A DNA stretch of 37,191 bases, taken from positions 1-37,191 of the forward strand of contig CAMBTO010000014.1 in the NCBI GenBank assembly GCA_945870865.1. Direction: 5' to 3'. This document shows positions 894-27,828 of this stretch, in pieces. The DNA is from Klebsiella pneumoniae (GTDB lineage Bacteria; Pseudomonadota; Gammaproteobacteria; Eutrophobiales; Eutrophobiaceae). The notes beneath the pieces are model-generated. The model was not told the origin of the DNA. It did no database searches and saw only the letters and a list, made by a program, of their open reading frames with translations. Position numbers and translations under genes: made by a program. Within the stretch, counting starts at the first letter, position 1; the number at the start of each line of letters is the position of its first letter.

Positions 894-1223
894 TTATGAG
901 TGTGAGGACCTCGGGCGTAAACAGACGATGTCGCTAAGGCGAACAATCCTTCTTCCTAAAATTACTGGCTGATTTTCTGACACAACAACAGGAAATAGTG
1001 GCCAGATCTGGTCCGCCAGAAACTCATGCTGAGATACTTCCGGCCAGTTTTTTGTCGTCAACTGATGACCGGTGTGCTCGCCGTGGATCTCCTGCAGAAA
1101 GGCCATATCCACATTGGTTTCCTGTAATGTCTCCCGGATCTGGTGCAGTACAAACTTCCGATTAGTGATATTGAAACCCTTGTGGATGTTGTATGTCAGT
1201 AATTTGAGATGTGGGCGAGGCAT
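894..1223 (-). pseudogene. Truncated endonuclease/exonuclease/phosphatase-family gene
   Basis: The first 75 or so residues match the start of EEP-family phosphodiesterases/nucleases: LLTYNIHKGF (with the catalytic Asn), a basic arginine-rich helix, then AFLQEIHGEHT (with the metal-binding Glu) and FLADQIWP. Family members run to about 230-260 residues; this one stops at 109. Its last 35 residues do not read like the family, so the Asp/His catalytic half is absent. The break lies close to the AT-rich spacer and the repeat lipoprotein, suggesting that a rearrangement removed the 3' half. It is probably not a functional enzyme. Confidence 0.75.
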
Positions 1224-1304
1224 AATTGCAACTTTATCATGAACTGCCGCTGGAAATATTTTATGCCGGTATCAATTCATCACTTTAAACCCTAGAATAA
1301 TGCC

Positions 1305-2750
1305 TTGTCCCGGCTGAAGCTTTTCAAGACGCAAGTTACCAGATTGAATATCAAATCTACACAAGAGTACTACCTGAATAGTCCTTCCGCGCGCTGGCTG
1401 GCACTGGCAAGTATCAGCATCTCGAATTTTGTAGTCTCGGTGACGATGTCAGCGGTCAACGTCGCCGTTCCAATGATGGCAAAGGACCTCAGTGCCAATG
1501 CGATCCTGGTCAGCTGGGTGCCAACCGCATTTCTGCTGGCAAACGCTATATTCCTGTTGCCTGCCGGCAGGATGGCGGATATACACGGACGTAAAAAGAT
1601 ATTTCTGACAGGCATGACGCTATTTTCGGTCTCCTGTGTACTTGCCAATCTGGCACCGAATATCGAACTGTTGCTAGTAACAAGGGTATTTCAAGGTATC
1701 GGAGGCGCGCTCGCCTTTGCAACTGGTCTGGCCATCCTCATGTCTATCTTCTCCTCCAGCAACCGCGGCACGGCACTTGGCATCGCCGCTGCAACGCTGT
1801 ATCTGGGCCTGTCACTCGGTCCCGTCATCGGCGGCTGGTTCACCGAAAATTACGGCTGGCGCAGTGTATTCCTGTTCCCGGTTGTCCTCGGCTTTATCTC
1901 GGTAACGATGACTGTGCTCCGATTGAAAGGTGAGTGGAAAGACGACGGGGCACAAAAGGTTGACTGGTACGGCAGTCTGGTCTTTGGCGTCTGGAGCAGT
2001 GCGCTGTATATCGGTATCTCATTGATACCGGATCCGCTGGCCTGGATACTGATATTGTCCGGCATAGCCGGTGCCGTGTATTTCTACTACCAGCAACTGG
2101 CCTCGCCAAATCCACTGATTAAATTCAAGGCAATCCTGCAAAACAGGGTGTTCTCGCGCTCGCTGATGGGCAACCTGTGTATCTATTCGAGTAATTACCC
2201 GTTCGTATTCCTGTTCAGTCTGTACCTGCAATATATCCAGGGTATGTCACCGGCAAACGCTGGCCAGATTATGGTACTCCAACCGCTGATGATGGCGATC
2301 GTGGCACCCATCTCCGGGAGATTATCGGATACATTTGAACCCCGGTTCATTGCAACCACCGGGTGTATCGTGATGGCCTGTGCGTTCGCCCTGCTGCAGA
2401 CGATAGACACCGATACCAGCATTACACTTATCGCCATTGCCCTGATGACACTGGGAATTGGTTTTGGCCTGTTCACCACTCCGAACAACAATGCGGCACT
2501 AAGTGCGATGGACAAGGAAAGACTGGGGATAGGCTCAGCCTTGCTGAATCTGGCGCGTGTATCCGGCAATATGATAGGTACGGCCACGGTGCTGCTGCTG
2601 GTCACACTGTTTATCGGTCATGTGCAGATTAAACCACCACTGTATCCCGCCCTGCTGACACTGATCCACGTGGCACTGGGCATGTCGTGTGTATTGACGA
2701 TATGGGGTGGGTGGTTTTCCTACTCTCGCGGACTGGTCCAGCAGACATAG
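1305..2750 (+). CDS. MFS drug/proton antiporter, DHA2 (EmrB/QacA) type
   Basis: This is an inner-membrane transporter of about 480 residues with many hydrophobic segments, consistent with the 14-helix DHA2 family. MFS motif A is visible as GRMADIHGRKK in the loop after TM2, and the antiporter motif C as LGLSLGPVIGG in TM5. The usual role is proton-driven export of toxic organic compounds; the substrate cannot be read. The start is uncertain: an ATG at 1300 leads straight to a stop, so TTG at 1305 or a TTG near 1344 is more likely. It stands alone, with no membrane-fusion partner beside it, and ends 27 bp from the convergent rnt. Confidence 0.85.
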   Translation: MSRLKLFKTQVTRLNIKSTQEYYLNSPSARWLALASISISNFVVSVTMSAVNVAVPMMAKDLSANAILVSWVPTAFLLANAIFLLPAGRMADIHGRKKIFLTGMTLFSVSCVLANLAPNIELLLVTRVFQGIGGALAFATGLAILMSIFSSSNRGTALGIAAATLYLGLSLGPVIGGWFTENYGWRSVFLFPVVLGFISVTMTVLRLKGEWKDDGAQKVDWYGSLVFGVWSSALYIGISLIPDPLAWILILSGIAGAVYFYYQQLASPNPLIKFKAILQNRVFSRSLMGNLCIYSSNYPFVFLFSLYLQYIQGMSPANAGQIMVLQPLMMAIVAPISGRLSDTFEPRFIATTGCIVMACAFALLQTIDTDTSITLIAIALMTLGIGFGLFTTPNNNAALSAMDKERLGIGSALLNLARVSGNMIGTATVLLLVTLFIGHVQIKPPLYPALLTLIHVALGMSCVLTIWGGWFSYSRGLVQQT

Positions 2751-2777
2751 TCAGTCACAACCTGCGGAAGCAGAATC

Positions 2778-3398
2778 TTATTTACAGTTCCAGCGATTGA
2801 CGATCATACAAAACAGTTCAGCCGTCTTTTCCGCATCATACATCGCCGAATGAGCCTCGCTGCTCTTCCAGTCGAGACCGGCTGCCTCGGCAGCACGTGA
2901 CAATACGGTCTGGCCAAAAGCGAGTCCGGCAAGTGTGACCGTGTCAAACGTGCTGAACGGGTGAAACGGATTGCGTTTGATACCGGTGCGCTCGACTGCT
3001 GCGTTCAGGAATCCGAGATCAAAGGAGGCATTATGGCCAACCAGTATCGCCCGTTTGCATCCATGTTCCCTGATCTTCTGGCGAACCAGTCTGAACACAT
3101 CGTGCAAGGCATCCTTTTCAGCCACAGCGATCTGTTTGCGAAACGGGTGTTCAGGATCGATGCCGGTGAAGGCCAGCGCGGCCTTGTCCAGATTGGCGCC
3201 CTCGAACGGATTCACGTAACGGGTAATTGTTTCGTCGATAAACCAGTTACCCTGTTCATTCACGCCCACCATCACCGCCGAGATCTCTAGCAATGCATCA
3301 GTTCTGGAATTAAATCCCCCCGTCTCGACATCGATCACAACCGGAAGATAACCGCGAAACCGGTTGGAAACAGCAGTATGCGTGGATTTCTCAGTCAT
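2778..3398 (-). CDS. rnt: Ribonuclease T
   Basis: A DEDDh 3'-5' exoribonuclease that trims the 3' ends of tRNA and other stable RNAs in the cytoplasm. Exo motif I is [10 protein letters not shown] near residue 20, motif II is the [12 protein letters not shown] region near residue 122, and motif III with the catalytic His is [11 protein letters not shown] near residue 182. At 206 residues it has normal RNase T length. Its ATG overlaps the end of pyrC by 8 bp, so the two are probably co-transcribed and translationally coupled. Confidence 0.93.
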
Positions 3399-4434
3399 GG
3401 GTCGCTACCAGTTTCCATTGACAGGTCTCTCCGGCACGAAGTGGGACGATTTCACCATCGGCAAACGGCAGTGAGGCAGGTATCTCCCATTGCTGTCGTG
3501 CCAGTGTAATCTTCTGTCTGTTTACCGGCAGTCCGTAAAAACGGGCACCATTGAGACTGGCAAACGCTTCCAGTCGGTCCAGGCAGCCTGTGGTGTCGAA
3601 GACCTCGGCATACAATTCGATCGCGCAGGGGGCAGAATAGATGCCGGCGCAACCGCAGGCAGTTTCCTTTGTTGAGCGCGCATGCGGGGCACTGTCAGTG
3701 CCGAGAAAGAAACGCGGGTTACCACCGGTTGCCGCCTGTACAACTGCCTGTCGGTGTTGTTCACGCTTGAGCACGGGCAGACAATACATATGCGGGCGTA
3801 ATCCACCCTTAAACAGGCTGTTGCGGTTATAAAGCAGATGTTGAGGCGTGATAGTGGCGGCGATATTTTCCGGGCCCTGGCCCACAAACTGGGCTGCTTG
3901 TGCGGTGGTGATATGTTCAAATACCAGTTTGAGCGCCGTGAATCGCTTCAGCAGCGGGACCAGTACCTGATCTATAAATACCTGTTCGCGGTCAAACGTA
4001 TCAACTGCAGGACCGGTCACCTCGCCATGTACCAGCAGCGGCACTCCCCATTGTTCCATCCGTTCCAGTACCTTGTATACTTTGTGGATATCGGTGACGC
4101 CCCGGTCTGAATTTGTGGTTGCACCGGCCGGGTAATACTTCAGGGCATGTACAAATTCACTGTCAGCGACAGCATCAATCTCGTCCGCGCTGGTGTTATC
4201 CGTCAGATACAGTGTCATTAACGGCTCAAAGTGACTGTCAAGAGGCAATGCCTCCAGGATGCGCTTTCTATAGGCAAGCGCCTGTTCAACCGTTGTCACT
4301 GGCGGGTTCAGGTTCGGCATAACTATTGCACGCGCAAACTGGCGTGCTGTCGGCGCTATCACACTGGCGAGCGCCGCACCATCACGCAGATGCAGGTGCA
4401 GATCGTCCGGTCGAATGATTGTCAATGTATCCAT
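3391..4434 (-). CDS. pyrC: Dihydroorotase, class II
   Basis: Catalyses reversible cyclisation of N-carbamoyl-aspartate to dihydroorotate in pyrimidine synthesis. The zinc motif HLHLRDG is at residues 12-18, the carboxylated-lysine region [13 protein letters not shown] follows around residue 95, and the other metal-site segments LVHGEV, FEHITT and LGTDSAPH are all present. An upstream in-frame ATG at 4473 would add 13 residues, but the start at 4434 ([11 protein letters not shown]) agrees with family N-termini and leaves room for the promoter at 4480-4508. It is followed directly by rnt. Confidence 0.94.
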
Positions 4435-4479
4435 AATTATCCGGCAGTTTCGGGGCTGATTCAGTACGTGCAAGGTAAC

Positions 4480-4508
4480 ATATCAGCCCGCATTTGTCTG
4501 ATACGCAA
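4480..4508 (-). promoter_or_regulatory. Candidate sigma-70 promoter for pyrC-rnt
   Basis: On the minus strand TTGCGT and TGATAT are separated by 17 bp, about 45 bp upstream of the pyrC start. It lies next to the divergent tas promoter. Prediction by eye only. Confidence 0.45.
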
Positions 4509-4515
4509 ATGTTGC

Positions 4516-4543
4516 TTGAAATAACCCTGTTTCCTTTTATCAT
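4516..4543 (+). promoter_or_regulatory. Candidate sigma-70 promoter for tas-purB
   Basis: TTGAAA and TATCAT are 16 bp apart, 30 bp upstream of the tas ATG. A small inverted repeat (CATTTG/CAAATG) lies just upstream, between this and the divergent pyrC promoter, and could be an operator. Confidence 0.5.
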
Positions 4544-4573
4544 AAATCAACCTACTTATTAGCGTGAAACAAG

Positions 4574-5614
4574 ATGAAATATTCTGAATTGGGCAGGACA
4601 GGCATCAAGGTCAGTACCTTGTGTCTGGGAAGCATGACCTGGGGTAATCAAAACACCGAACCGGAAGGCCATGCACAACTTGATCTCGCACTGGATGCCG
4701 GCATCAATTTTATTGATACGGCCGAGATGTATCCTATACCGCCACAGGCAGCAACTTACGGCAGGACCGAGGAGATCATCGGCAGCTGGCATACCCGTCG
4801 GCGCAATCGCGACAGGTTTATCCTGGCTACCAAGATTACGCCACCCGGCAAGAACCGGCCATGGATACGCGGAGAGGACAACAAACTGGACCGCAGAAAC
4901 ATCGAACTGGCCATCAACGCGAGTCTGAAACGACTGCAAACAGACTACATTGACCTGTACCAGATTCACTGGCCCGAGCGTAATGCGAACAACTTTGGTC
5001 AACTGAATTATACCCATACACCTGAACGTGACGGCACGCCAATCGAGGAAACGCTGGAAGCACTGGATGCGATGATACGCAGTGGCAAGATCCGATATGT
5101 CGGTGTCAGTAACGAGACCGCCTGGGGCCTGAATGAGTATCTGCGTATTTCTGACAAACGATCACTGGCGCGTATCGTCTCAGTCCAGAATCCGTACAGC
5201 CTGCTGAATCGGTCTTTCGAGATTAATATGTCGGAGATTGCCCTGCGCGAACAGGCAGGACTGCTGGCTTACTCGCCACTCGGTTTTGGCGTACTTAGCG
5301 GCAAATATCTTGCTGATCAGCAACCAGAGAATGCCAGACTGACGCTATACAGCGGGTTCAGGCGTTACCTTAATGAACAGGCTGTCAGTATCACGACAAA
5401 ATATGTGCAGCTGGCGCGCGATCACCGGCTGGAGCCGACGCAGATGGCGCTCGCCTTTGTATTGACCCGGCCATTTTTAACCAGTGTTATAATAGGTGCC
5501 TCCTCAACGGCACAATTGACTGCCAATATTGGCAGTCTGCAGGTTCAACTGTCAGTAGAGCTGTTGCAACAGATAGAGAAGCTGCATACTGAACAACCGA
5601 ACCCCAGCCCCTGA
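4574..5614 (+). CDS. tas: NADP(H)-dependent aldo-keto reductase, Tas type
   Basis: A soluble TIM-barrel oxidoreductase of 346 residues. The AKR tetrad can be placed: Asp and Tyr in FIDTAEMYP, Lys in ATKITPP and His in QIHWPE. Sequence and length follow the E. coli Tas subfamily closely, including GKIRYVGVSNETAWG, VSVQNPYSLLNRSFE, LAYSPLGFGVLSGKY and a late TQMALAFVLTRPF. The physiological substrate of Tas is not established. It ends 30 bp before purB, so the two may share a transcript. Confidence 0.88.
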   Translation: MKYSELGRTGIKVSTLCLGSMTWGNQNTEPEGHAQLDLALDAGINFIDTAEMYPIPPQAATYGRTEEIIGSWHTRRRNRDRFILATKITPPGKNRPWIRGEDNKLDRRNIELAINASLKRLQTDYIDLYQIHWPERNANNFGQLNYTHTPERDGTPIEETLEALDAMIRSGKIRYVGVSNETAWGLNEYLRISDKRSLARIVSVQNPYSLLNRSFEINMSEIALREQAGLLAYSPLGFGVLSGKYLADQQPENARLTLYSGFRRYLNEQAVSITTKYVQLARDHRLEPTQMALAFVLTRPFLTSVIIGASSTAQLTANIGSLQVQLSVELLQQIEKLHTEQPNPSP

Positions 5615-5632
5615 ACATCCTCTGGAATATAA

Positions 5633-7039
<1,407 letters not shown>

Positions 7040-7053
7040 CCGGAGATGAATCC

Positions 7054-7461
7054 ATGATCAAGTTTGAAGACTGCAGGCTGGGCGAGACCGACGAGGCGCT
7101 TGCAATTGATACCAGCGAGCAACTGGGGCAGGTGTCACTGGAAATGGTCAGGCAGAGGAAACGCATGCTCGACATCATCAGCCGGGAACTGGATCCGGCC
7201 ATCTACAACACGGCAGAATTTACCGAAGCCGTCAAACAACTGGTATTAAAGAGCCGTAACAACAGGGTACGTATACTGGTCCACGAACCGTTACGGATTG
7301 CCAAACGCGGTCATCGCCTGGTGGATCTGGCAATGCACCTGAGTAGCTTCATCTGGTCGCCCCACGCCAGAGCTCGGTCAATCCTGGCCGGGTGCCGAAA
7401 TTTGATATACAAAGTGTGCAGACCACCGTCACTGGCCAACTGGGTGAATGGATACAGATAG
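7054..7461 (+). pseudogene. DUF7931-like gene truncated by a junction
   Basis: The first 99 residues (ending AMHLSSFI) resemble a short soluble protein family of gammaproteobacteria, assigned from memory to DUF7931; members usually continue to about 160-170 residues. Here the similarity stops near base 7350, and the remaining 36 or so residues look like out-of-frame translation of the next piece of DNA. The start ATG at 7054 follows purB closely. The protein is probably non-functional or reduced. The family function is not known to me. Confidence 0.6.
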
Positions 7462-7571
7462 GCGGACTGGATCAGTCCAGTTTCGCTAACCGACAAATAC
7501 CCGGTGGATCGAACAGTCGCCAGGTAGATGAGATGCGATCAGTACTGATAAAAGTTGAAGAAATTCGGTAA
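7347..7571 (+). pseudogene. 3' remnant of an unidentified gene fused behind the DUF7931 fragment
   Basis: In the third frame, directly after the junction, about 74 codons read as ordinary coding sequence with no start codon of their own: VPKFDIQSVQTTVTGQLGEW, then IQIGGLDQSS and MRSVLIKVEEIR, ending at TAA 7569-7571. It looks like the C-terminal tail of a larger beta-rich protein. I could not place it in a family; a secretin-like or envelope protein is only a guess. It ends 53 bp before purL. Confidence 0.5.
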
Positions 7572-7624
7572 ACTGTCGGCCTGAACAGCCCGAAATTTAA
7601 CTTACATAGCAGGAATCCAGATTA

Positions 7625-10600
7625 ATGCTCGTATTCCGCGGTGAACCCGCATTTTCCCCGTTTCGCATCGAAAAAAAGTGCACTACGCTCGGACAGGTTT
7701 GTCCCGCACTGCGGCAGGTCCAGACTGAATACGTCTATCTGGTCAACAATACTGCGACACTGTCAGCTACCGACATCGGCAAACTGGAAAACTTGCTACA
7801 AGCACAGCATCAGTCCGACGCCGGTTCCTGGCCGGAACAGACACTCCTGGTAGTTCCTCGTCCGGGCACAATTTCACCCTGGTCAAGCAAGGCCAGTGAT
7901 ATTGTCCACCATTGTGGACTGCCCCAGGTCAGACGGGTCGAACGCGGGCTCATCTGGCAGTTCGAGTTTGAAGCGGGATACAGTCTGGATACGATCACGC
8001 TGACGGCATTAAAAGGACTCATCCATGACCGGATGACACAAACCGTATTATCCAGCCTGAGCGGAGCAGATTCCCTGTTCCAGGCCGGTCAGCCCAAACC
8101 ATTGAAACATATCGACCTGCTCGGTACAGGCAAGCAGGCCCTGATCACAGCAAACAAGATCATGGGTCTGGCGTTGTCAGTAGATGAAATTGATTATCTG
8201 GATCAGGCGTTTACCACGCTGGGACGTAATCCTTCGGATGTGGAACTGATGATGTTTGCGCAGGCCAACTCCGAGCATTGCCGACATAAAATATTCAATG
8301 CCAACTGGACGATAGACGATATTGCAATGCCGGACTCACTGTTTGGGATGATACGCACCACCCATGCCCACGCCCCGGGTCGCGTCATGTCTGCCTACAA
8401 GGACAATGCGGCTGTCATGCGCGGATATACCGCGTCACGCTTCTTCCCGGATCCGGCTGACAGTACCTATCGTTATCACGCTGAAGATGTAAACATCCTG
8501 ATGAAGGTGGAGACACATAACCATCCAACGGCAATTGCGCCCTTCCCCGGTGCGGCGACCGGCTCGGGTGGCGAGATCCGGGATGAGGCTGCAACGGGCA
8601 CTGGCGCCAAACCGAAGGCCGGTATGACCGGGTTTACCGTTTCCAATCTGCAGTTACCCCAGCTGCCGCAAGACTGGGAGATCGACACCGGTAAGCCGGG
8701 CAGGATAGTCAGTGCGCTCGACATCATGATCGATGGACCGCTCGGTGCTGCCGCATTTAATAACGAATTTGGTCGACCGGCACTCTGCGGGTACTTCCGC
8801 AGCTATGAACAGCCCATCCCCGGCACCCAAGCTTTTTTTGGGTATCATAAACCCATCATGCTTGCGGGTGGTTACGGTGCGATTCGCACGATGCATGTTG
8901 AAAAGAAACCGATCCTGGCCGGGGCAAAACTGGTTGTGCTCGGTGGACCGGCCATGTTGATTGGTCTGGGTGGTGGCGCTGCCTCGTCTGTCGCCTCCGG
9001 CCTCGGCGATGCTGATCTGGATTTTGCCTCGGTGCAGCGGGAGAACCCGGAGATGGAACGACGCTGTCAGGAAGTGATAGACCGCTGCTGGGCACTCGGT
9101 GAGGACAGCCCGATAGTTTCGATCCACGATGTTGGTGCGGGCGGACTCTCCAATGCCTTGCCCGAACTCATACACCAGGGTAATCGTGGAGCTCTGTTTC
9201 AGATGCGCGCGATCCCGAATGACGACCCGGGCATGTCGCCAATGGAGCTCTGGTGCAACGAATCGCAGGAACGCTACGTGTTGGCGATTAGACCGGATGC
9301 GATCGAAACATTTACGGCCCTGTGCCAACGCGAGCGTGCCCCGTTTGCCATACTGGGCGAGGCCGATGATAGCGGTCAGTTACAGTTGCATGATTCGGTC
9401 TTTGATAACAAACCGATCGACATGCCGTTGAATGTGCTGCTGGGCAAACCGCCCCGCATGAGCCGCCAGGTCACACGTCACCCATTTGCAGGCAAACCGC
9501 TGCAACTGGATAAGGTTTCCGTGGCAGAGGCGATCTCGCGTCTGCTGCAATTACCGACGATCGCTGACAAACGCTTCCTGATTACGATAGGAGATCGCAG
9601 TGTGTCCGGTCTGGTCGCCCGCGATCAGATGGTCGGCCCATGGCAGACCCCGGTGGCCGATTGTGCCGTAACCGCCAGCAGTTACGATGCATTGGTTGGT
9701 GAGGCCATGTCCACCGGTGAACGCTCACCTGTCGCTGCGCTGAATGCACCGGCCTCAGGCAGGCTGGCACTGGCAGAGGCGATCACGAATATCTGTGCGG
9801 CAAGGATACTGAGGCTGGAGGATATCGCACTGTCTGCCAACTGGATGGCCGCCTGTGGCCAGCCTGGCGAAGATGTGAAACTGTATGAAACTGTCAATGC
9901 GGTGGCGACCCTCGCCCGTGCACTGAATATTCCGATACCGGTCGGCAAGGATTCGTTGTCGATGAATACGGTATGGAAAGAAGGTGAACAACAAAAGCAG
10001 GTGTATTCTCCCCTGTCGGTCAACATTACCGCGTTCGCCCCGGTCGCCGACATCCGCAAGGTACTGACACCGCAATTGCAGGCGCAACCAGACAGCTGTC
10101 TGTTATTGATCGACCTGTCCGGTGGGCGCAATCGCCTCGGCGGTTCCTGTCTGGCCCAGGTTTTTAACCAGTTTGGTGAGCATACCGCTGATCTTGATAA
10201 TCCCGCCCTGCTCGCCGGGTTTTTCCGGGCGATACAATTGTTGAATGAAACCGGTCATATCCTCGCCTATCACGATCGGTCTGACGGGGGTCTGTTTGTC
10301 ACTGTTTGTGAAATGGCCTTTGCCGGACACCTGGGTGTGGATATCCAGATACAGACGGACAACCACGAGATATTCGCGCAATTATTCAGTGAAGAGTCAG
10401 GTGCTGTCATCCAGATTAACAACGCGCATAAAGAGAGTGTATTGCAGGCATTTTATAATGCTGGTCTGCGCAGTGAACATCTACAAGTAATTGGTCTGCC
10501 GAATGATAACAGGACAATCACAATTTCGAATTCGGGCAAGCAGATCTATAGCGAACAGCTGGCCAAGCTCCACCGCCTGTGGTCATCCACATCAAACAAC

Positions 10601-11503
10601 ATACAGCAGCTGCGTGACAATCCCGACTGTGCACGAGAAGAGCTTGAAACGCTGCTCGACATGAACGATCCCGGCCTGTTTATCTATGTACCCGCAACGG
10701 CAACCCGACGACATGCTCCGGCTATCAATCCCGGCGCCCGCCCGCGTATCGCCATTTTGCGCGAACAGGGCGTCAACGGACAGGTTGAAATGGCGGCGGC
10801 ATTTACCCGCGCCGGCTTTGATTGCATAGACGTCCATACCAATGACCTGATCAACAACACCGTCGCCCTGGAGTCATTCCTTGGCTTCGTCGCCTGTGGT
10901 GGGTTTTCCTACGGCGACGTGCTCGGTGCGGGTGGTGGCTGGGCAAAATCAATACTGTATAACCCTGCCCTGCGCGACAGCTTCGAGCAGTTTTTTAAAC
11001 GCACCGATTCCTTTGGTCTGGGTGTGTGTAACGGCTGCCAGATGTTGTCACAGTTACGTGAGATCGTACCGGGTGCTGAACACTGGCCCGATTTTGTCAG
11101 AAACCGTTCCGAGCAGTTCGAGGCACGTCTGGTCATGGCTGAGGTGATGCAGTCACCCTCTATTTTCACGGCCGGTATGGCAGGTGCGTATGTACCAGTG
11201 GTCGTGGCCCACGGCGAAGGCAGGGTACGTTTCAAACACGGTCAGGATGCCGGTATGAGCCTGCCGATAATGCGCTTTACCGATAATTCTCGCCAGCCAA
11301 CCGAACACTACCCGGCCAACCCGAACGGGTCACCCAGCGGGATGACCGGTTTTACCACAACAGACGGACGATTTTCCATCATGATGCCGCATCCGGAACG
11401 TGTATTTCTGACTCGTCAGCTGTCTTATATCCCGACGGACTGGGCACATGAAGAAACACCGTGGATGTGGATGTTCCACAATGCCCGGAACTGGGTAAAA
11501 TAG
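7625..11503 (+). CDS. purL: Phosphoribosylformylglycinamidine synthase, long form
   Basis: Converts FGAR, glutamine and ATP to FGAM in purine synthesis. At 1292 residues it is the single-chain proteobacterial form. Visible parts are an N-terminal PurS-like domain, a linker with [16 protein letters not shown], two AIR-synthase-like halves ([20 protein letters not shown] in the first, a second glycine-rich ATP-binding half) and a C-terminal glutaminase domain with the nucleophile Cys in GVCNGCQM and His in MMPHPER. An AGGA ribosome site precedes the ATG. purB lies just upstream, which suggests a purine gene group separated by the gene debris at 7054-7571. Confidence 0.96.
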
Positions 11504-11568
11504 GACTGGTCGAACGGAATTACTGTTATGCTGTCACACATAAACAGCCTCGGATGGAGGATAGATTA

Positions 11569-12522
11569 ATGCTTATCAGGTACCCGACAGATATAAAACC
11601 CTCGGAGATCACCAGCAAGACGGATTATCTCAACCGGCGCAAATTTATCCAGGGCAGCCTGGGTACCGGGCTGGTACTGGCGAACAGCAGTCTTCTGCTT
11701 CACTCACCGACTGTGCAGGCCGGCACACCGTTAGCGGATGTAATTAAAAGCCCGCTGTCTACGGCAGGTGAAACCCTGACCCCGCTCGAGGCGGTTACCA
11801 CCTATAATAATTTTTATGAGTTCGGTACTGCAAAGGAAGATCCGGCAGAAAATTCCGGCAAATTCAAGCCGCAGCCATGGACGGTGTCAGTAGAGGGCGA
11901 ATGCAACAAACCCGGCACCTATAATCTGGAAGATATCGTCAAACCACACAAGCTGGAAGAACGCATCTACCGACTACGCTGTGTCGAGGCTTGGTCAATG
12001 GTTATACCCTGGGTAGGGATCCCTCTGGCAGAGGTTTTAAAACGTTTTGAACCAAATGCCGATGCGAAATATGTCGCGTTTACTACCATAATGCGACCGG
12101 AAGAAATGCCCGGGCAACGTTATGATGTGCTCGACTGGCCTTACGTCGAGGGACTCAGAATCGATGAATCCATGAACCCATTAGCCATACTCGCTGTTGG
12201 TCTGTATGGAGAAGAACTACCCAACCAAAATGGAGCCCCGCTCAGACTGGTCGTGCCCTGGAAGTATGGATACAAGAGTATCAAGTCGATTGTGAAGATC
12301 GCTTTTACCAGCAAGAAACCACCTACCTCCTGGAATCGTTCGGCTCCGAATGAGTACGGATTTTATTCAAATGTGAATCCCGAGGTTGATCACCCGCGCT
12401 GGAGTCAGGCCAAAGAACGTCGTATAGGCAGTTTCCTGAAGCAGGACACATTGATGTTCAATGGTTATGCAGACCAAGTCGCCTCACTTTATGCGGGCAT
12501 GAATCTGAAACGGAATTTCTGA
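11569..12522 (+). CDS. msrP: Periplasmic methionine sulfoxide reductase, molybdopterin subunit, copy 1
   Basis: MsrP (YedY) reduces oxidised methionine in envelope proteins using a Mo-molybdopterin cofactor and electrons from MsrQ. The Tat signal has NRRKFIQ at about residue 23, a hydrophobic stretch and a likely cut after VQA. The cofactor Cys is in [15 protein letters not shown], and the C-terminal [17 protein letters not shown] is typical. An in-frame GTG at 11461 lies inside purL; the ATG at 11569, with GGAGG 8 bp upstream, is the better start and gives 317 residues, like its neighbour. It begins 65 bp after purL and is followed 24 bp later by a second copy. Confidence 0.93.
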
Positions 12523-12546
12523 GGTCTACAACCTGGATATTGAGCG

Positions 12547-13503
12547 ATGCTGATTAAGAAACCAGATCTGATCAAGCCTTCGGAAATTACCAGCAAGTCA
12601 GCGTATCTTTCGCGTCGCCAGTTTATCAAATCCACCGTACACGCCGGAATGGCAGGTATAGTCACCAGCAGTGGTCTGTTGCCTATTGCAAAGTCCGAAG
12701 CTGCTATACTGGGCAACATTGTTAAAAGCCCCCTGTCTGATACTCAGGAACAACTGACCGACCTTGAATCCATCCGTACCTACAACAACTTTCTGGAATT
12801 CGGCAACGACAAGAAAGATGCCTCGAAACATGCTGGCAAACTGACCATCCTCCCGTGGAGCATTACTGTTGATGGCGAGTGCAACAAACCTGGCGTGTTT
12901 AATCTGGAAGATGTAATCAAGCCGCACCAACTGGAAGAACGGATCTATCGACTGCGCTGTATTGAGGCCTGGTCCATGGTAATCCCATGGACAGGGATTT
13001 CGCTCGCGGAGGTGCTAAAACGCTTTGAACCCAACTCCAGTGCAAAATTCGTTACCTTTACCACGGTCTACCGCCCGGAAGAAATGCCCGGACAGAAAAA
13101 TAACCGGAATCTGAAGTGGCCCTATCTGGAAGGGTTGCGTATTGATGAGGCAATGCACCCATTGTCCATTCTTGCTGTCGGATTGTATGGCGAGGAACTG
13201 ATGAACCAGAACGGCGCCCCCATCCGGCTGGTTGTGCCATGGAAATACGGAATCAAGAGTATCAAATCGATCGTCAAGATCAGTTTTGTACGTGAACTGC
13301 CCCCGACTATCTGGACGCAATTTGATGCAAAGGAATTCGGGTTCTACTCGAATGTAAATCCACAGGTCGACCATCCTCGCTGGAGCCAGTCCAAGGAACG
13401 GCGGATAGGTAATCTGCTCAAACAGGATACCCTGATATTTAACGGCTATGCCGATCAGGTCGCTTCCATGTATAGCGGCATGGATTTACTAATCAACTTT
13501 TAA
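12547..13503 (+). CDS. msrP: Periplasmic methionine sulfoxide reductase, molybdopterin subunit, copy 2
   Basis: A 318-residue paralogue of the gene just upstream, similar along its whole length (about two thirds identical by eye). It has its own Tat signal (SRRQFIK), the same cofactor-Cys segment [15 protein letters not shown], and the conserved [14 protein letters not shown] and [16 protein letters not shown] blocks. The signal region and the segment around residue 180 ([12 protein letters not shown] versus [11 protein letters not shown]) differ most. Both copies keep the residues expected for activity, so neither looks like a pseudogene. It sits 6 bp before msrQ, placing both reductases in one operon with a single membrane partner. 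Confidence 0.92.
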
Positions 13504-13509
13504 TCCGCC

Positions 13510-14106
13510 ATGAAATTATTCGTTAAACCGGCAGTGTTCATACTGTCACTCGTTCCGGTTGCCCTGCTGACATACTACGGATTTACCAGACAATTAACAG
13601 CAAACCCGATTGAATTTATCACTCATTACACCGGTGACTGGGCACTTTACTTCCTGCTGATAACCTTGGCGGTAACCCCACTCAGGGTAATAACGGGCAA
13701 TATTACTGTGAACCGTTACCGGCGGATGCTCGGCTTGTTTGCGTTTTTTTATGCCTGTCTGCACGTTATGACCTATTTTGTACTGGATCAGTTTTTTGAT
13801 GTAGAAGCTATCATCAACGATATTGTGAAGAGACCGTATATCACGGTTGGCTTTAGCGCATTCGTGTTACTGGTGCCACTGGCCCTGACCTCTACCCGAA
13901 ACATGGTTATGCGTCTGGGCAAACGCTGGCGACAGTTGCATTCGATGGTTTACCCGCTGACCGGGCTCGCCCTCCTGCACTACTATTGGCTGGTCAAGGC
14001 GGATACATGTACTCCGATCCTGCTGGGAATCATTTTTACCCTGTTGATGTTACTTCGAACCACCTGGTTTAAACAGGCCAGGGATCGCATCGCTGCCTCA
14101 CTTTAA
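13510..14106 (+). CDS. msrQ: Heme-binding membrane subunit of the MsrPQ system
   Basis: An inner-membrane b-type cytochrome (YedZ) of 198 residues that passes electrons to MsrP. About six hydrophobic helices are visible. Candidate heme-ligand His residues are in FFYACLHVMTYFV and in the QLHSMVYPLTGLALLHYYW region. The ferric-reductase-like fold, the MRLGKRWRQLHS loop and the gene order are characteristic. It follows the second msrP by 6 bp. Confidence 0.93.
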   Translation: MKLFVKPAVFILSLVPVALLTYYGFTRQLTANPIEFITHYTGDWALYFLLITLAVTPLRVITGNITVNRYRRMLGLFAFFYACLHVMTYFVLDQFFDVEAIINDIVKRPYITVGFSAFVLLVPLALTSTRNMVMRLGKRWRQLHSMVYPLTGLALLHYYWLVKADTCTPILLGIIFTLLMLLRTTWFKQARDRIAASL

Positions 14107-14155
14107 GTACTTGTGATTCCAGACATTTTCCGGAAAGTACGTTAATCTGATCCCC

Positions 14156-14713
14156 ATGAATAAAAAGGGCCTGCCACCGGAAGACATCGAACTGTTCCGC
14201 CAACATGCGGGTGAGGTCAAACCGATTTTAAGCAACACGATAGAATTACCCCGACCGGTATCACGCAAAAGGCACAGACATCCGGAAACTGCCAGCCGCG
14301 CCGTTCCGATGGGCGCCATGTCTGACCAGCCAACCTACATACCTGCTGAAATCGATATCAGCGATGAGAATTATATCCATTTCAAACGACCCGGCATACA
14401 GGACCGGATATTCAGGAGATTGCTACGTGGTCAAATACCGATCGTGGCTGAACTGGATTTGCACGGAATGACGGTCTATAACGCAAAAATTGCGCTGGAT
14501 CAGTTCATGGACCATATTCGCCAACACGAACGCCAGGTATGTATCAGGATTATCCACGGCAAGGGATACGGTTCCCGGGACGGACTGCCCGTCATCAAAA
14601 GACAGACCCAGCTTTGGTTGCAGTGCAATATAAACATACTGGCCTATTGTTCCTGCACACCGGCAGACGGGGGAACAGGAGCGATATATGTTCTTGTGAA
14701 AAATTGTGCATAA
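14156..14713 (+). CDS. Smr-domain protein, SmrB/YfcN-like
   Basis: A 185-residue soluble protein with a basic, probably disordered N-terminal third and a C-terminal Smr domain from about residue 95: ELDLHGMTVYNAK, then RIIHGKGYGSRDG and the end GAIYVLVK. Smr proteins of this size act on nucleic acids; E. coli SmrB cleaves mRNA at collided ribosomes. Assignment to SmrB rather than another Smr protein is likely from length and layout but not proven. It begins 49 bp after msrQ on the same strand. Confidence 0.85.
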   Translation: MNKKGLPPEDIELFRQHAGEVKPILSNTIELPRPVSRKRHRHPETASRAVPMGAMSDQPTYIPAEIDISDENYIHFKRPGIQDRIFRRLLRGQIPIVAELDLHGMTVYNAKIALDQFMDHIRQHERQVCIRIIHGKGYGSRDGLPVIKRQTQLWLQCNINILAYCSCTPADGGTGAIYVLVKNCA

Positions 14714-14867
14714 ATAACTCAATTACACCATAGTTGATATATTCATGAACTACGTAATATAAAATAATTGCCGTCACTAATCCAAGTCAGATCAGAGATT
14801 GATTAACTTCTATGGAGTTTAAGTTTTTAATAAAAAAACAGTTCTAATATTTGACTGAAATCTTGAT
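14714..14867. other. AT-rich convergent intergenic region
   Basis: 154 bp between the ends of the Smr gene and ispF, markedly AT-rich. I see no ORF, clear GC-rich terminator stem or repeat. Confidence 0.5.
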
Positions 14868-24866: not shown

Positions 24867-25067
24867 GTGCACAAGCAGATGCCGCTGTTATGGGTCTTAC
24901 GTGAAAAGGTCAAACTGACGGGAACCAAGTTTGGCTGCGGCATCGCTGAATGTGGTGCCTGTTCGGTACATTACGTAATCCCAGTTTATTTTTTAAATCG
25001 TCATCGTACCCGGCAGTATAGGATAAAAAATATGAGGCTGTATCAGACAGCTAACGGGGCCGTTTGA
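24867..25067 (+). pseudogene. Remnant of a [2Fe-2S] subunit of a molybdenum hydroxylase
   Basis: Residues 5-35 (about 24879-24971) read [20 protein letters not shown], then [11 protein letters not shown]. This is the ferredoxin-like N-terminal domain of xanthine dehydrogenase/isoquinoline 1-oxidoreductase small subunits, with the cluster ligands in a Cys-x4-Cys-x2-Cys pattern. Intact subunits are about 150-160 residues. Here the similarity ends after SVH and the rest overlaps the 3' end of the convergent PLP-enzyme gene. No large subunit or maturation gene is nearby. It is a decayed fragment. Confidence 0.72.
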
Positions 25068-26010: not shown

Positions 26011-26523
26011 CTAATGTGGCTGATCGGTTATAGTCTTCCAGTTACCGCCCCAATCAAGTCCCAGTTCCATACCAAGCACGCCGACCGCCTTGTATTTTGG
26101 CGAATCAGCTAAATAGCTGGATCCTTCAAATACACCGACATGAAAGGCTATCCCGAAATTGTGGTTGGAGTAACCCCCTCTGGCTTTTGTAACTATATTG
26201 CCTGGAACTGTGCGGCCTTTTGCGTACAATTCTTCCTGTTCCTCGAATGTACGCATGCCACTGATGATTTTGATGCGTATACCGTTGTCGGCAGATTTCT
26301 GGATCAGTGCGCGAGCAAGTTTCTGCACTGGTGGCAATAAAGTGGCAATCACCTTTTCACTGCGTGTGTCTACCGGCTCAGGGCTGGTAGAAACTAATGC
26401 TGTTGCAGCGGTGGGTTTGACGATTTTTTTGTAGATTACCTCCCAGGTTTCAGGCCCTGCCCTGCCATCGACTGTCACACCGAGAGCTGCCTGTACAGCA
26501 GAAATTATTTCTTCATTTTTCAT
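26011..26523 (-). CDS. M15-family peptidoglycan peptidase with altered zinc motif
   Basis: The N-terminal 35 residues (AALGVTVDGRAGPETWEVIY) look like a partial peptidoglycan-binding repeat. The C-terminal half is a VanY/L-alanyl-D-glutamate peptidase-like M15 domain: ISGMRTFEEQEELYAKGRT, then GYSNHNFGIAFHVGVFE and LGLDWGGNWKTITDQPH. Enzymes of this family hydrolyse cell-wall peptides and usually carry S-x-H-x-x-G-x-A-x-D; here the last Asp (a zinc ligand) is His. The protein ends at the third metal His, 170 residues, without the usual few residues after it. There is no signal peptide. It could be an inactive or altered endolysin-like protein. AGGA precedes the ATG. Confidence 0.78.
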   Translation of the reverse strand: MKNEEIISAVQAALGVTVDGRAGPETWEVIYKKIVKPTAATALVSTSPEPVDTRSEKVIATLLPPVQKLARALIQKSADNGIRIKIISGMRTFEEQEELYAKGRTVPGNIVTKARGGYSNHNFGIAFHVGVFEGSSYLADSPKYKAVGVLGMELGLDWGGNWKTITDQPH

Positions 26524-26631
26524 ATTGTTATCCTACCTGGCTCTATAATTATTTGCCCCGTACCGTTCCTGGTATAACTCCTTGGTCTGGACCCGAAACA
26601 CACGTTCTATTTTGGTTCGTATTGTCACAAA

Positions 26632-26983
26632 AGTGCTAGGATGGATAAATGTAATCCTGTATACCATTCTATGTTATGGCCTCGGTCTGTGGAATTCGAT
26701 TCCGGGAACGCTGGCGATCGAAGGTTTTTTTTATGGCCGCGGTTATCCTTTATGCAAAGGCATTCCCTGCCCGCGATACTCTGGGCAAGACAGGTTTTAC
26801 TGCCCTCGTCGGTCTGGAAGGCATCATCTGGGTCTCCGGTCATTTTCGCCACCGCCACCGAATGCTACGGCAATTGCGTTTGTCACGCTTGGCTTGTGGA
26901 TTTTTCCGCTCTGGGCGTGGAGAATAGAAACACACCGGCAGTTCAGTCCTGCCAACATTATCAATAACAGGCATAAACTTTAT
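26632..26983 (+). pseudogene. Frameshifted small membrane-protein gene
   Basis: Three consecutive pieces in two frames read as one protein of about 115 residues with four membrane helices. The first is GWINVILYTILCYGLGLWNS, then IEGFF; the second, after a run of eight T residues at about 26727-26734, is MAAVILYAKAF, then GKTGFTALVGLEGIIWVSGHF; the third, after the repeated CCACCG near 26850, is TAIAFVTLGLWIFPLWAWRI. The frame returns to the first, so the two shifts compensate. In the last frame there is no stop before the VIT gene. Family not recognised. Confidence 0.55.
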
Positions 26984-27682
26984 ATGTATAGAAGCCATAC
27001 CGAACGCCACCGGACCAACCGTATAGGTTGGCTACGTGCCGCCGTACTTGGCGCAAACGACGGGATAGTCTCAACCGCGAGCCTGGTCGTCGGGGTAGCG
27101 TCGGCCCAGGCTACACAGGGTGAAATACTGGTTGCAGGTATGGCAGGTTTAGTCGCGGGTGCCATGTCGATGGCGGCCGGAGAGTATGTCTCTGTCAGCT
27201 CACAATCCGATACGGAAAAGGCAGACCTTGCAAAAGAGACCCGCGAACTCGAAACCGACGTTGCGCATGAACTGGATGAGTTGGCGGCAATCTATGAAAG
27301 TCGCGGTCTGGATTCACGCCTGGCGAGGCAAGTGGCTGAACAGATGATGGCACATGATGCGCTGGGTGCCCATGCGCGGGATGAACTTGGCATATCCGAG
27401 TTTATGACGGCAAGACCGGTACAGGCTGCTTTCGCCTCGGCCGGGACCTTTGCCATCGGTGCAGCCCTGCCATTACTGACTGTAGTGCTTGTACCAGAAA
27501 CGATCATCGGCCCGGCTGTCTCGGTGACCTCACTGGTCAGCCTCGCCGGCCTGGGCACGCTGGCCGCGCGTGCCGGTGGTGCAGATGTAGTCAAATCGAC
27601 AGTGCGCATTACATTCTGGGGTGCGATGGCGATGGCAATAACGGCTGGTGTCGGTGCGCTGTTCGGTACCACGCTCGCCTAG
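26984..27682 (+). CDS. VIT/Ccc1-family iron/manganese transporter
   Basis: A 232-residue inner-membrane protein. The N-terminus HTERHRTNRIGWLRAAVLGA and NDGIVSTASLVVGVA is the VIT family hallmark; AGAMSMAAGEYVSVSSQSD follows in TM2, then a cytoplasmic Glu-rich helical region (residues 75-140) and three C-terminal helices. VIT1/Ccc1 proteins export Fe2+ or Mn2+ from the cytosol by proton exchange; the ion here is not determined. The frame is open far upstream to 26582, but the family N-terminus fits the ATG at 26984. Confidence 0.9.
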   Translation: MYRSHTERHRTNRIGWLRAAVLGANDGIVSTASLVVGVASAQATQGEILVAGMAGLVAGAMSMAAGEYVSVSSQSDTEKADLAKETRELETDVAHELDELAAIYESRGLDSRLARQVAEQMMAHDALGAHARDELGISEFMTARPVQAAFASAGTFAIGAALPLLTVVLVPETIIGPAVSVTSLVSLAGLGTLAARAGGADVVKSTVRITFWGAMAMAITAGVGALFGTTLA

Positions 27683-27828
27683 ACTGGATAATTGAGGAGC
27701 TCGTCCAGTGGGGTGGAGTCTGGCTCATCGTGCGTCAACTCGCGTAAATGTAAATTTACTAGAAGTGAAATAACATGTCCTCTGATAGTAGTTATCCTGA
27801 CACGTGAAATGCAAGGCGTGTCTGATCT

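Follow-up and report, generated by a model that had tools for sequence, protein, structure and literature searches.

Between purB and purL, in the 37,191-nucleotide stretch of contig CAMBTO010000014.1 (assembly GCA_945870865.1) that we call the window, lies an open reading frame of 135 residues whose resemblance to the DUF7931 family stops partway. Is this frame a gene, or is it the trace of genes that were lost? The original prediction held that the DUF7931-like frame loses family similarity near base 7350, that a different frame, with a stop codon at 7344–7346, continues as good coding sequence for 74 codons, and that a deletion between two genes had left this arrangement behind. As a reference we used G001, the nearest relative compared, which belongs to the same genus and shares approximately 91% DNA identity. 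The locus is laid out as follows, with D denoting the DUF7931 gene and S the secretin homologue.

5645–7039, plus strand: purB (adenylosuccinate lyase), intact left flank; a 464-residue ORF, 94% identical to G001 purB.
7054–7353, plus strand: remnant of gene D (DUF7931), codons 1–100 of 170, from the alignment to G001 and the DUF7931 match.
7054–7461, plus strand: 135-residue ORF, a mechanical product made of D residues 1–100 and 35 out-of-frame residues of S DNA.
7353–7354, no strand: probable deletion junction, where 855 bp of G001 are absent, from the alignment to the G001 locus (L062).
7354–7571, plus strand: what is left of S, the secretin homologue (codons 217–287 of 287 plus the stop), from the alignment to G001.
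7392–7571: 59-residue GTG ORF inside the S tail.
7625–11503, plus strand: purL, intact right flank; a 1292-residue ORF, the first 350 residues of which are 91% identical to G001.

The 135-residue frame matched DUF7931 (PF25559, E = 6e-21) over residues 21–100, equivalent to profile positions 2–81 of 149, compared to positions 2–147 for gene D of G001. Family similarity thus ends at residue 100, as had been proposed from the sequence. The second frame was also found as described, with a TAG at 7344–7346 followed by 74 open codons from 7347 to a normal stop at 7569–7571. The 99-residue head and the 74-residue tail were then searched separately, each against 58 genomes including the window's own. 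Matches to the head were obtained in 37 of the 57 other genomes and matches to the tail in 31, the latter always within a longer open frame of 239–406 codons; the best tail match was to G001 (E = 4e-38, 88% identity). Because the tail matches so many genomes inside longer open frames, the 74-codon frame is not a product of chance, and a lack of homologues, which would have argued against a deletion, was not observed. Its interpretation as the end of a second gene stands as far as homology is concerned, but its first codons have to be given up: the TAG and positions 7347–7352 are D DNA read in the wrong frame, and codon 7353–7355 is a hybrid across the D/S boundary. The 74-residue tail had no Pfam match, to Secretin_N and Secretin or to any other family.

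Comparison of the purB–purL interval with G001 showed that this relative carries two whole, adjacent genes in the predicted order, D with 170 residues and S with 287, the start of S overlapping the stop of D as ATGA. Two collinear BLAST blocks, with identities of 91.0% and 91.4%, adjoin at window position 7353/7354, and the 855 bp of G001 that lie between them, a single gap, are absent from the window. The head (7054–7353) corresponds to D residues 1–100 and the tail (7354–7568) to S residues 217–287. Intact orthologues of both pieces are therefore adjacent in close relatives, the intervening DNA is cleanly gone, and the flanks are collinear with G001 from window position 1000 to 14724. A frameshift or sequencing error in place of a deletion was rejected, since 855 bp are missing relative to G001. 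On the strength of these alignments, we consider it very highly probable that a single 855-bp deletion joined the head of D to the tail of S out of frame and thereby broke both genes. Such a deletion would have taken D residues 101–170 and S residues 1 to approximately 216, including the S start codon and an N-terminus that, judged by eye, is signal-peptide-like, while purB and purL would have been kept. The D/S junction is known from one assembly.

To consider how the two ends were joined, we placed both breakpoints on the G001 sequence, where no base is shared between them. The longest word common within 30 bp of the breakpoints is 5 bp, a length equalled or exceeded in 276 of 300 random pairs. 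Repeat-mediated deletion was rejected, since the breakpoints have no word in common beyond chance. Repeat-independent (illegitimate) joining would be the simplest mechanism, with the limit that G001, at approximately 91% identity, is too distant to speak to lost microhomology.

The missing DNA was next sought in the window's own assembly, which consists of 97 contigs and is listed as 100% complete. The 855 deleted bases of G001 gave no significant match there (best E = 0.46, over 22 bases). The D protein matched the head only, with no second copy, and the S protein matched the tail and two weak secretin-like sequences (E = 7e-4, in a 659-codon frame, and E = 0.2) that were taken as other proteins, with no intact second copy. 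On these searches, we rejected a transfer of the missing piece to another place in the genome and, because the stretch lies nowhere else in the assembly, both D and S would be broken in this organism. The fragmentation into 97 contigs is compatible with an error of assembly or binning, by which 855 bp that exist in the organism were dropped; yet for the assembly graph to collapse, both breakpoints would have to carry a repeat, and there is none, no other contig holds the deleted DNA, and the flanks are collinear over kilobases. We regard such an artefact as very improbable, and nothing points to one; the junction might also be a minority variant.

We also searched the 135-residue ORF as a unit in 20 genomes, its own included. 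Among the 19 others, 13 matched, 12 of them aligning over approximately residues 1–100 only and one, G043, giving a weak match to residues 18–112 (E = 0.007). No homologue of the ORF as written was found in these 19 genomes, so that the finding named beforehand as telling against a deletion did not materialize. In G001, the last 35 residues matched only S-gene DNA, and there in a frame that is non-coding and just 35 codons long. By these comparisons, the 135-residue ORF is not a conserved gene, and a functional fused ORF was rejected on both grounds. It appears extremely unlikely to us that the fusion has created a new functional gene, be it this ORF or the 59-residue GTG ORF at 7392–7571: both frames are open and the dN/dS of the remnants is low, but a young deletion would be expected to leave low ratios anyway, the D part is without its C-terminal half, and the 35 residues added to it stem from the wrong frame of S. 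Moreover, most of the invariant residues of D beyond position 100 (D120, R127, R132, F139, F152 and W156) are lost with that half, and the fusion is conserved in no sister strain.

The ratios in question, calculated against G001, were 0.138 over the 100 codons of the D head and 0.221 over the 71 codons of the S tail, compared to 0.094 for purB and 0.127 for purL (501 codons). Low values for the remnants suggest that the deletion is recent; most of the divergence between the remnants and G001 may predate it, in which case dN/dS says only that there has been little decay so far. At the eight positions where the S tail differs from G001, other members of the family share the window residue at two and the G001 residue at six; for the eight differences in the D head, the corresponding numbers are three and four. 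The S-tail counts, small as they are, hint at relaxed selection on the remnants. We picture the deletion as probably recent and also of little cost, since elsewhere in the family the same two genes have gone as well.

In order to follow these losses, all 53 genomes of the family in our set were searched with D and S profiles. Both genes were present near full length in 38 genomes, on one strand and separated by no more than 41 bp in 37 of these (143 bp in G065). Both were broken only in the window's genome (1 of 53). D occurred without S in four (G020, G031, G062 and G073), with purL directly following D; S was truncated and D absent in one (G004); and neither gene was found in nine (G010, G018, G024, G029, G035, G058, G059, G060 and G061). 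The interval was visible in five of these nine, and in G024, G029, G035 and G060 purB and purL lie close together. It was not visible in G010, G058 and G059, which gave no purB match, or in G061, where the locus ends after purB. This tally omits a second D match of G034, at a contig edge, and weak S matches (E of 5e-10 or weaker, in frames of 658–802 codons), which were taken as other secretins.

Since D and S are adjacent in the 38 family genomes and also in two genomes outside the family, G047 and G050, the intact pair is, judging from this distribution, ancestral. In G004, of the same genus as the window's genome, S begins only at residue 53 and D is absent, whereas purB and purL are still there; this locus was thus hit by another, different deletion. 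From their scatter over genera, we infer that the losses in the family were probably separate events. D and S could work together as a small module of the envelope that is coupled to the purB–purL operon and repeatedly lost, with S never whole without D; we offer this tentatively, as possible rather than probable.

Two further arrangements of the interval were observed. G018 carries a nucleotidyltransferase gene and a nucleotidyltransferase-substrate-binding gene (NTP_transf_2 and NTase_sub_bind) on the opposite strand between purB and purL (L091:606-1380); gene pairs of this kind are known as toxin-antitoxin systems. In G073 (L096:856-2946), purB continues in frame, via a tandem-repeat linker, into a DUF7931 domain, giving a protein of 697 residues with Lyase_1, ASL_C and DUF7931 matches; S is absent and purL is next.

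Beyond the locus, the genome measures 2.17 Mb, compared to 3.6 Mb in G001. The window is shorter than G001 at 14724–14734, 23387, 24878 and 24971–24978 (approximately 7.5, 2.8, 6.8 and 3.7 kb), as well as at 26012–27804. We do not claim that the genome is shrinking through many recent deletions of which the junction would be one, because several of these sites are compact in G004 too and the changes may have run in either direction. At 11461–13503, the window holds two neighbouring, similar ORFs of 353 and 318 residues, whose cross-matches suggest a tandem duplication; from inspection by eye, we take them to be an MsrP/YedY-like molybdopterin protein. The contig record of G001 (L078, CAMDWI010000002.1) is titled as a Klebsiella pneumoniae MAG, a label that is probably wrong, given that the family of genomes in which D and S occur is a different one.

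The simplest reading of the D–S scar is ordinary pseudogenisation, that is, tolerated gene loss. The scar can be read from the raw sequence alone, and it explains a misleading 135-residue ORF that automatic annotation would name a DUF7931 protein. A modest functional lead comes from the pairing of a DUF7931 gene with a very small secretin homologue between purB and purL, a pairing repeatedly lost. Our literature search found no paper on DUF7931, and none on purB, purL and a secretin together.

How do the genes and the scar compare with known systems? S of G001 resembles the secretins GspD and PilQ in carrying both Secretin_N (PF03958, E = 6e-9) and Secretin (PF00263, E = 1.7e-11), above the Pfam cut-offs, and its profile matches GspD chains of solved structures (5wln, E = 3e-11). 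In contrast to GspD and PilQ, it has just 287 residues, its NCBIfam scores are 48.5 against a GspD cut-off of 351 and 38 against a PilQ cut-off of 284, and the window keeps only its last 71 codons. As for DUF7931 (PF25559), the head in the window corresponds to residues 1–100 of a member but is without the C-terminal half (profile positions 82–149); the D profile gave weak matches only to solved structures, the best (E = 0.009) being to designed or chimeric proteins. The locus as a whole is like other deletion-generated bacterial pseudogenes, with one deletion, two truncated neighbours, intact core-gene flanks and intact orthologues in relatives. It shows no difference in kind from these, the purB–D–S–purL site and the genes themselves being what is specific to this family.
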